Below are positions 49,972 to 52,876 of a DNA stretch of 64,000 nucleotides, piece by piece (within the stretch, counting starts at the first letter, position 1; each line of letters opens with the position of its first letter). A program made the translations under genes and the position numbers. The notes under the pieces are model-generated. The model had not been told where the DNA came from and did no database searches. It saw nothing but the letters and a program-made list of their open reading frames with translations. The stretch is from Campylobacterales bacterium (GTDB lineage: Bacteria; Campylobacterota; Campylobacteria; Campylobacterales; Sulfurospirillaceae), in contig JAFGFU010000001.1 in assembly GCA_016930915.1 (NCBI GenBank), positions 1-64,000 on the forward strand. The letters are read 5' to 3'.

Positions 49972-51309
49972 TTAGTATTTAAGCGATGCAAGGTATTCTG
50001 CCATGGCATCGTATTCGTGTTCGGGTAATTTTAAGGTTGGCATATAGGAAAATGCGCCATCGCCCATAGCATATAAAATGGCTTTAATTCCATCCTTATC
50101 CATTCCCGTGAGTTTGTCTTTTAATGGTCTATAAACCCCTGTTGTTTCTAGTGAGTGGCAGTTTGAACATGCCATTTTAGAGAGAAGTGCACCTGCTTCA
50201 AGTTTGTTCTCTTCTGTGATTGTTTTAAGATTTTTCGGTACAAAAGGATTGACTTGTAAAAGCCCTTTCTCTGCAATAATAGGCAACTCACTTTTAATAT
50301 TTTTGCCAGGAACATCACGACTGATAATTTGGTTAGAGTAGATGTATTGACCTGCAACATAAGGTTTTCTCATAGACTCTCTTAGTTTCTCTCCTGACCA
50401 CAAACCAGAAATGAGAATGACAGCGATCATCGTGCTTGCTAAAGCTGGATGAATCAGTTTTGGTTTGATGATAGCAATGGCAAAATAGCTCATAAAAACA
50501 AGTGTCAGGATAATTCTATTTTGGATAATTGTCTCTTTTGAAAAGGCAAAAACCGCATGGGCATTGTCAGGCAATGTTCCCATATACCATACAAAGAAGA
50601 AGAGGGTAATAAACCCACCAAAAATACTCACATAACCCATTTTTCGGCTGAGTTCATTGGAGAGTTCTTCGTTCTCTTTGCGCATAGCGCTAGAGATGAC
50701 CAAACCAATAACGCCTGACATCATAATCATAAAGCCAACACGTAGGAACATATGTGGGAAAGTGTTGATACCAAAAAAAGCATCACTTGCACTACCTGTG
50801 GCATAGTACGCCTGTGTGCCTGGCCACATCATAAAGCTGATGATACCAATAATAAGTGCTAAGGTTCCCACCGAAGCAAGAGCAAAGGTGTAGGTAAGTT
50901 GTAAATGTGTTTTTTTATCTATTTTGTTCATGAAGTAAACCAGTACAAAAACACCAATGACTTCATAAATAAAAAAGACCCATTCCGTTGCCCAGACCCA
51001 CACAAAGTTGTGAATGAGTGCACTAATGCCCCTAGGACTAGCCGCCGTTGCCGTGTACCAAATACCAGGTCCTGTAATGGATCCTAAGACATAGGAAAAT
51101 ATCAGCAAGAACATGCCGTACTTTTTCATGTACGGGTAGTAATCACTCCTGTTTTCTTTATAGGCTTTGTGTGACAAAAAGGCAAACAACATCGCCGCCC
51201 CAACAGAAGTATGTGAAAATAAGATGTGTATCGTGCCCGTAATACCCATCATCCAAGCACTTCCATACTCAGGAAAATAAAACAATGGAAATTGTCCTAT
51301 TATATCCAT
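49972..51309 (-). CDS. Cytochrome bd oxidase-like subunit I with fused C-terminal cytochrome c
   Basis: 445 aa. The first part follows CydA: a His-bearing helix (TIHILFSHTSVGAAM), GSITGPGIWYTA and Glu-containing helix EWVFFIYEVIG, with MWPGTQAY later. About eight or nine membrane segments run to about 320. I see no GRQPW or Q-loop of quinol-oxidising CydA. The C-terminal about 90 residues form a c-type cytochrome domain with one CSNCH heme site and a distal methionine candidate in YMPTLKLPEHE. The layout matches the cytochrome c-fused (OR-C) branch of the bd superfamily. Electron donor and substrate (oxygen or other) are unproven. The ribosome site AAGGAGAG precedes ATG 51309. Confidence 0.75.
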   Translation of the reverse strand: MDIIGQFPLFYFPEYGSAWMMGITGTIHILFSHTSVGAAMLFAFLSHKAYKENRSDYYPYMKKYGMFLLIFSYVLGSITGPGIWYTATAASPRGISALIHNFVWVWATEWVFFIYEVIGVFVLVYFMNKIDKKTHLQLTYTFALASVGTLALIIGIISFMMWPGTQAYYATGSASDAFFGINTFPHMFLRVGFMIMMSGVIGLVISSAMRKENEELSNELSRKMGYVSIFGGFITLFFFVWYMGTLPDNAHAVFAFSKETIIQNRIILTLVFMSYFAIAIIKPKLIHPALASTMIAVILISGLWSGEKLRESMRKPYVAGQYIYSNQIISRDVPGKNIKSELPIIAEKGLLQVNPFVPKNLKTITEENKLEAGALLSKMACSNCHSLETTGVYRPLKDKLTGMDKDGIKAILYAMGDGAFSYMPTLKLPEHEYDAMAEYLASLKY

Positions 51310-51763
51310 GAACTCTCCTTTAGTTAAATTTTTTCAATTCACGGATATTATTAAACAGACGTGTTAAATATGTGTTAATTTAATTTGAAATTAAGAAAAT
51401 AATTAGAAATTTTTATATTAATGTTACATATTAAGAAACAAATTATAGAAAGATTAAGTAATAGACTTCTTGCAAAACTCATTTTGTAAGAAGGAAAAGC
51501 ATTAAGGGTGCGTGAGCTTTCTGCCAAAGATTACCCAGTATTAATGTAGCCTTTAGAGCTTTGCTTTAAAGGCGTGTCAAGAGTTCTGCAAGAACTCTAA
51601 TGAAAATATGTAGTTTTACATGTAAAAAAGAGTAGAGCCATATCTTAAAAGCCCAATTTGATCTATCTGTGTTCTAATGTAAATCTTAGTTTATGGTGTT
51701 AATAAAAATTTGGGAGAAGCTTTTTAATGCCTTCACGCTAGACTCAAAACAAAAAGAGAAGTC
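51310..51763. other. 454-bp gap with promoter repeats and three hairpins; no gene seen
   Basis: The left part (51310-51440) is A/T-rich and is probably the cyd-like promoter region. The middle holds three inverted repeats in a row: 51466-51477 with 51482-51493 (12 bp, one G-T pair), 51549-51559 with 51563-51573 (11 bp, one mismatch), and 51580-51587 with 51591-51598 (8 bp, perfect). A TTACATGTAA copy follows at 51616. No open reading frame with a ribosome site was found. A small RNA, a degraded insertion sequence or stacked terminators are possible. Confidence 0.55.
51361..51378 (-). promoter_or_regulatory. Direct repeats 11 bp apart upstream of the cyd-like operon
   Basis: GTGTTAA occurs at 51361-51367 and 51372-51378, an 11-bp period, so both copies face the same side of the helix (TTAACAC on the coding strand of the operon). 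This arrangement is typical of OmpR-type response regulators. It is 52-69 bp upstream of ATG 51309. TAATAT-like -10 sequences lie between the repeats and the gene. Confidence 0.45.
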
Positions 51764-52249
51764 ATGAAAGAGTTTATCGCCACTGTTCAAACTGCCATTA
51801 TTAGTACATTGGATAAAAAGAATCATCCTTTTAGTTCGTATGCACCTTACATTTACGATAACAACCGTTTTTATGTCTACATTTCTGACATCGCAACCCA
51901 CGCCAAAAACATTCAAAGAAACCCCAAAGCCTCACTTTTTTTTGTGGAAGATGAGAGTAAAACGGAGAATGTATTTGCCAGAAAGCGTGTGTCATTGCAA
52001 TGCGATAGCCAAAAAATTGAGCGAGGCAGTGAACGCTTTGAAGTGGTGCTGGACTTGTTTGCTGAAAAATTTGATGCCAAAATGGTTGGTACACTGAAAA
52101 AAATGTTGGACTTTAATCTGTACGAGTTCAAAGTGAATTACGGTGAAGCGACGTTTGGATTTGGGAAAGCCTATTTTATCGGTGGAGAACATATGGATGA
52201 ATTGATTGCTCGGAGTGAAGTAAATCCACATCATGGGGTAAGCAAATAG
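51764..52249 (+). CDS. HugZ-like heme-binding/pyridoxamine-oxidase-fold protein
   Basis: 161 aa. The split beta-barrel fold shows in the N-terminal stretch TVQTAIISTLDKKNHPFSSYAPYI, FYVYISDIATHAKNI and PKASLFFVEDE, and in the C-terminal NLYEFKVNYGEATFGFGKAYFI. This is the layout of HugZ/ChuZ proteins of Helicobacter and Campylobacter, which degrade heme to release iron. Here it is shorter than those (about 250 aa), holding only the barrel part plus a short tail with a His pair (NPHHG). Heme oxygenase activity is inferred. The ribosome site AGAGAAG lies before ATG 51764. Confidence 0.75.
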   Translation: MKEFIATVQTAIISTLDKKNHPFSSYAPYIYDNNRFYVYISDIATHAKNIQRNPKASLFFVEDESKTENVFARKRVSLQCDSQKIERGSERFEVVLDLFAEKFDAKMVGTLKKMLDFNLYEFKVNYGEATFGFGKAYFIGGEHMDELIARSEVNPHHGVSK

Positions 52250-52307: not shown

Positions 52308-52589
52308 GTGGATAAAGTGATTCGTTGGGATGAAGCAAAAAATCAACTCTTGCAACTTCAACGAGGTGTGAGTTTTGAAGAGGTGCTTGAGTTAATTGAA
52401 CAAGGGAGTATTTTAAATCGACTGATGCACCCCAACCATGAAAAATACCCGCATCAAGAGATTTTTGTGGTTGAGATGAAAGGCTACATTTGGTACGTGC
52501 CTTTCGTGGAAAATGAAAGTGAGATATTTTTAAAGACCATAATTCCTAGTCGAAAATTGGTCAAAATGTTTGGAGGGAAAAAACAGTGA
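52308..52589 (+). CDS. BrnT-like toxin of a type II toxin-antitoxin module
   Basis: 93 aa from GTG 52308 (AAGGAAA upstream). VIRWDEAKNQLLQLQRGVSFEEVLELIEQG at the N terminus follows the BrnT/RelE-like pattern (basic FxWDxxKN...GVSFEEA) and the C-terminal FLKTIIPSRK is the expected basic end. Such toxins are ribosome-associated or free RNases. The antitoxin gene follows with a 4-nt overlap, and the pair has its own consensus promoter. The order toxin then antitoxin matches brnT-brnA. Activity is unproven. Confidence 0.75.
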   Translation: MDKVIRWDEAKNQLLQLQRGVSFEEVLELIEQGSILNRLMHPNHEKYPHQEIFVVEMKGYIWYVPFVENESEIFLKTIIPSRKLVKMFGGKKQ

Positions 52590-52876
52590 AAACAAAAAAA
52601 ATAGTCCTAGATGCTGAAGAATTAGAGCTTTTAAGTGAAATAGAAGCAGGCGAATGGAGTGAAAAATCACTGGACAAGAACGAGCTAAGTGCTTACCAAA
52701 ACCATGCCAAATATACAAAATCACTGAATGAAAAAAGACAAACCACCATTCGCTTTTCCGTTAGTGACCTAGCTATCCTCAAAGCAAAATCCAAAGAGCT
52801 AGGCATCGGATACCAAAACCTCATTCAAGCGTTGGTGCATAACTATGTGAAGGGTGATATTAAGCTGGAAGTGTGA
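52586..52876 (+). CDS. BrnA/CopG-like antitoxin
   Basis: 96 aa from GTG 52586, overlapping the toxin stop (GTGA). An acidic N-terminal half (VLDAEELELLSEIEAGEW) likely covers the toxin. The C-terminal RQTTIRFSVSDLAILKAKSKELGIGYQNLIQALV is a ribbon-helix-helix DNA-binding domain. It should neutralise the toxin and repress the shared promoter. A TTACATGTAA copy lies 11 nt after the stop (52888). Confidence 0.76.
   Translation: MKTKKIVLDAEELELLSEIEAGEWSEKSLDKNELSAYQNHAKYTKSLNEKRQTTIRFSVSDLAILKAKSKELGIGYQNLIQALVHNYVKGDIKLEV

Follow-up and report, generated by a model that had tools for sequence, protein, structure and literature searches.

Where do electrons enter a protein of the bd superfamily that ends in a cytochrome c domain of its own, and does quinol still take part? 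The question is raised by a gene in the window, the whole stretch of 64,000 nucleotides of Campylobacterales DNA that was analysed. A sequence-only reading of the window had placed at 49972-51309 a bd-like subunit I whose electrons would come through a c-type heme and not from quinol. The gene, its partner and their relatives were compared by profiles, structure models and genome context, and the results bear on this proposal as follows.

Subunit I and its partner gene

An ORF of 445 codons occupies exactly this interval and is read 51309→49972 on the minus strand, which the sequence-only reading had not named; frame 1 of the plus strand is full of stops. The gene is present in single copy in the window genome. 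Relatives with 84-91% identity belong to Sulfurospirillum cavolei, S. arcachonense and Sulfurospirillum MAGs, and the window genome is close to Sulfurospirillum. The features of the locus are collected in Table 1.

Table 1. Features of the operon, in window coordinates.
Feature	Position	Strand	Remarks
Subunit II gene, 397 aa	48769..49962	-	begins 9 bp past the subunit I stop; CydA paralog, divergent, without Pfam match
Subunit I gene, 445 aa	49972..51309	-	CydA-like membrane domain and C-terminal cytochrome c
Cytochrome c domain, residues 366-445	49975..50214	-	CSNCH at 381-385 (nt 50155-50169); Met423 probably the axial ligand
CydA-like membrane part, residues 18-322	50344..51258	-	eight predicted TM helices; without Q-loop (TM6-TM7) and without TM9
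E307-KLR-E311-SM-R314-K315-P316	50362..50391	-	E311 opposite E445, the heme b595 ligand; RKP opposite the RQP of GRQPW
TM3 codons E109 to E116	50962..50985	-	opposite E99 and E107 of the E. coli protein; E109 invariant, E116 Asp in Thermus only
H28 codon	51226..51228	-	opposite the heme ligand H19 of E. coli and H21 of Geobacillus; invariant
Upstream intergenic region, 454 bp	51310..51763	-	probable promoter region

Taken as one protein, subunit I gave weak matches in Pfam, to Cyt_bd_oxida_I over residues 19-210 (E 1.1e-5, just below the gathering cut-off) and to Cytochrome_CBB3 and Cytochrom_C over residues 370-444 (E 5e-4 to 1e-3), and a PDB search with the single sequence returned no match. 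These assignments became solid once profiles were used. The membrane part matched the canonical CydA alignment with E 2.3e-13, and a profile of the subunit I relatives recovered the CydA of G. thermodenitrificans (5doq_A) with E 1.5e-6 as well as cytochrome c proteins. The AlphaFold model, which has a mean pLDDT of 74, eight long helices and no hemes, resembles the CydA chains of solved bd oxidases (Z 18.5-21.6) more closely than it does alternative complex III (Z 14-16) or polysulfide reductase (Z 13); rows from plasmid records were left out of the alignments feeding this model and that of subunit II. The CxxCH motif is invariant in 50/50 distinct relatives. Thus, the bd-like nature of the protein and its C-terminal cytochrome c domain with CSNCH, both claimed from the letters alone, are borne out.

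The partner gene, read 49962→48769, had been missed in that reading. Its product, subunit II, found neither a Pfam match nor a PDB sequence match. Nevertheless, by sequence and model it is a second CydA paralog, nearer to CydA than to CydB, as in CydAA', because four kinds of observation agree: its profile scores (E 1e-5 against CydA, 0.004 against CydB and 6e-9 against subunit I); its model, with pLDDT 81, of moderate confidence and free of hemes like that of subunit I, whose best structural matches are CydA chains with Z 25-28 over most of the length; the direct match of one Bacillota subunit II to PF01654 (Cyt_bd_oxida_I); and its conserved residues, namely the invariant H33, aligned with H28 of subunit I, then R190, R299 and an Arg or Lys at 303. 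An identity as CydB is disfavoured by the profile scores and the fold. Position 300 of subunit II is Glu in the clade of the window and mostly His in the other clade, and the subunit II proteins of Campylobacterota clade 2 carry an additional C-terminal cytochrome c domain with CxxCH.

Heme ligand positions, Q-loop and known systems

In canonical bd enzymes electrons from quinol are taken up by heme b558 and its ligand pair, and the Q-loop of the E. coli protein is well over 100 residues long. In E. coli, His186 and Met393 ligate heme b558 and Glu445 ligates heme b595, whereas heme d has His19 as ligand in bd-II and faces Glu99 in the bd-I model (PMC8585947, PMC6853902). We scored residue conservation on 50 distinct subunit I sequences from Campylobacterota, Bacillota, Thermus and Alphaproteobacteria. 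H28, E109, E311, R314, K315 and P316 are invariant among them, such that the ligand positions of both active-site hemes are kept, with E116 being Glu or Asp. The spacing between E109 and E116 is 7, the same as in Geobacillus; the Leu101 insertion of E. coli CydA (PMC6853902) is absent.

The b558 positions look different. HHalign places an invariant R190 opposite His186 and a variable I261 opposite Met393, and no invariant His in TM5 or invariant Met in TM7 was found among the 50 sequences. The H186 of subunit I itself is replaced by Ser, Met, Gln or Gly in most other lineages. In the window's own clade, the main one of Campylobacterota, all sequences keep this His, roughly one helical turn away from the position aligned with the b558 ligand, so that a third heme b (b558) is conceivable there. 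The residue alignment with CydA in TM5 and TM7 is itself uncertain by about one turn. The sequence-only reading had pointed to the three heme ligands and the oxygen-site glutamates as the positions to look at: those of the active-site hemes stand, and the b558 pair does not.

A normal Q-loop with all quinol-oxidase residues was looked for by alignment and model. The Q-loop is absent, as had been supposed, since TM6 of the model ends at about residue 244 and TM7 starts at about 258, leaving a linker of some 13 residues. The argument originally given for this loss, a missing GRQPW, had to be rejected: the motif follows Glu445 in CydA, outside the Q-loop, and its counterpart ESMRKPY (311-317) is present in subunit I. 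Two family-wide features are new with respect to CydA, a second TM1 histidine (H33 of subunit I) and E307 in place of Trp441, four residues before Glu445 by counting. Together, the conserved active-site heme positions and the non-conserved b558 pair strengthen the idea that electrons would enter through the c-type heme and not from quinol. O2 would be the molecule reduced.

The cytochrome c-fused family of the bd superfamily is OR-C, reportedly so described by Murali, Gennis and Hemp in 2021. The superfamily comprises the families qOR, OR-C and OR-N, the quinol site being the mark of qOR (PMC10839748, PMC13189123). Compared by description, the window pair corresponds to that family, with a CydA homolog devoid of the quinol site, a fused cytochrome c domain and retained active-site residues, and no feature tested sets it apart; the placement in a cytochrome c-fused bd branch, proposed earlier, therefore holds for a c-fused, Q-loop-less member. 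Canonical CydAB (E. coli bd-I and bd-II, G. thermodenitrificans 5doq) shares with subunit I the CydA fold and the counterparts of H19, E99, E107, E445, R448 and P450. Unlike it, the window enzyme has no Q-loop, no TM9 and no conserved b558 ligands, carries an added cytochrome c and has a second subunit nearer to CydA. In CydAA' of Archaea and OR-N of Nitrospirota and Nitrospinota, the enzyme is made up, or proposed to be made up, of two CydA-type paralogs, and OR-N, devoid of the quinol site, presumably takes its electrons from cytochrome c (PMC10839748, PMC12342949). The window pair likewise consists of two CydA-type paralogs, but has its c domain as a fused part of subunit I. CydA proteins fused to c-type cytochromes and found without CydB were noted in 2015 (PMC5322542); compared by description only, they are like subunit I in the fusion and in not being paired with CydB, and they have more than one c heme each (several), against a single one in the window protein. 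Our literature search on the c-fused branch found no report of its electron donor, acceptor or heme content; the branch is already named, and its function has apparently not yet been measured.

Distribution and neighbours of the operon

A full subunit I was found in 54 of 397 sampled Campylobacterota genomes, among them those of cultivated Sulfurospirillum and Arcobacter relatives; the count leaves out one genus-mate (G272) having only a cytochrome c match of 74 residues. Further relatives lie on plasmids of Methylosinus, Thermus and Agrobacterium, and a strong match occurs in 5/120 sampled genomes of the Anoxybacillus order. The genes of subunits I and II are adjacent at almost every locus checked in Campylobacterota, Bacillota, Thermus and Alphaproteobacteria, and the trees of both subunits show the same two main clades, with several long branches. 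A clade-1 operon (L028) and two clade-2 operons (L079, L083) have flanking genes in common, which suggests replacement in place.

Outside the subunit gene pair the gene content differs greatly from locus to locus, so that a fixed neighbourhood was rejected as a clue to function. The commonest are a response regulator and small cytochromes c, TsdA being rare. Small monoheme c cytochromes (cluster 4) adjoin the operon in Sulfurospirillum (L005-L007, L024, L029, L091) and also in Methylosinus. An orphan OmpR-type response regulator adjoins it in many Campylobacterota, at L025 (8564-9226), L027 (8566-9249) and L079 (7381-8046), and also at L009, L011-L014, L016, L018, L030 and L094; in the Arcobacter-type copies the presumed phospho-accepting Asp is changed to Asn or Gly, which suggests a regulator independent of phosphorylation. 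In Campylobacterota clade 2 (L079-L083) the next genes of the operon encode a thioredoxin-like protein and a NapH/CcoG-like polyferredoxin, perhaps an electron input from the quinol side.

On the plasmid of Methylosinus sp. C49 (L066, 9247-25417) the operon lies between feoB and a methanobactin cluster, which hints at metal-limited conditions; the genes behind it encode a small cytochrome c, a histidine kinase and a response regulator. On a Thermus plasmid (L067, 14108-22618) a ZnuA-type metal-binding gene precedes the operon, and a CobW-type GTPase, a second ZnuA and DsrE-family genes come after it. In the window itself, a divergent gene of the pyridoxamine-phosphate-oxidase family (PNPOx_N; 51764-52249, plus strand) lies upstream, a position kept in the nearest relatives only. 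Next to it, at 52308-52876 on the same strand, are a BrnT-like toxin gene (below the Pfam cut-off) and, after it, a 96-aa gene without Pfam match, probably a toxin-antitoxin pair of the BrnT/BrnA type.

Proposed electron path and its alternatives

We consider it likely that the pair forms a two-subunit enzyme belonging to OR-C within the bd superfamily, acting as a copper-free cytochrome c:O2 reductase. Subunit I would hold the two active-site hemes, with H28, E109 and E311 as ligands. By the topology carried over from canonical CydA, its helix 8 is expected to end on the periplasmic side at E311, and the cytochrome c domain follows in place of the canonical TM9, which would bring heme c close to the active-site heme on the periplasmic side. 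Electrons would then pass from a donor cytochrome c, perhaps one of the small periplasmic ones, to heme c and from there straight to the di-heme site and O2, such that neither the Q-loop and quinol nor the low-spin b558 would be needed; subunit II would be the second CydA-type paralog in the place of CydB. The operon is compact, and what it predicts is clear-cut: an enzyme with heme c and two active-site hemes that has neither b558 nor quinol activity. If true, bd chemistry could be driven by cytochrome c, as a copper-free alternative to the cbb3-type cytochrome c oxidases.

It is conceivable, if rather doubtful, that the enzyme is a minimal copper-free cytochrome c oxidase, made of two active-site hemes and a tethered heme c with b558 and quinol chemistry dropped, that links periplasmic oxidations of the thiosulfate type to O2 or stands in for copper oxidases under metal scarcity. 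The role in metal scarcity is suggested by the Methylosinus copy close to methanobactin and feoB and by Thermus copies near zinc-uptake and CobW genes.

The substrate could be NO or another small oxidant. One alternative is a detoxifying reductase, directed at NO or at peroxide and oxidative stress and fed by cytochrome c, for which O2 respiration is not the main role. The window genome also carries canonical cydAB and one full COX1-family heme-copper oxidase gene (presumably cbb3), so that a third respiratory oxidase looks redundant, and the flavoprotein gene of the PNPOx family stands upstream on the opposite strand, both here and in the nearest relatives. Against these points, the canonical O2-site residues are kept, no NO-related gene is prominent among the neighbours examined, and nosZ is not associated with the operon in the 397 Campylobacterota genomes (14/54 with it vs 113/343 without; Fisher p 0.35). 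We hold a mainly detoxifying role to be improbable. A link to denitrification or NO reduction was rejected for want of this nosZ co-occurrence.

That the enzyme serves chiefly as the oxidase end of the oxidation of thiosulfate or another sulfur compound, with electrons going from TsdA through cytochrome c to the enzyme and O2, strikes us as quite improbable, even if it has concrete observations on its side. A gene for a TsdA/SoxA-type diheme cytochrome lies directly downstream of subunit II at one Campylobacterota locus (L004) and 25 bp upstream of subunit I at a Bacillota locus (L084), two phyla with one and the same clade of operon; this is adjacency at 2 of about 57 loci only. TsdA-like genes occur in 33/54 genomes with the operon and 55/343 without it (odds ~8), and the L004 type in 10/54 and 5/343, respectively, among the same 397 genomes; since both counts ignore relatedness, and a TsdA-like gene is present in almost every genome of the window's genus, the co-occurrence is only a hint of a link to thiosulfate oxidation. 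The window operon has no TsdA neighbour, and the TsdA-like gene of the window genome is of a distant type and sits on another contig. Least probable by far, in our judgement, is a bd enzyme that oxidises quinol in the usual way, its c domain being decorative. Membership of the bd superfamily and the partly retained GRQPW-like stretch would fit it, but the Q-loop is gone, the b558 ligands are not conserved and the partner subunit resembles CydA, not CydB.
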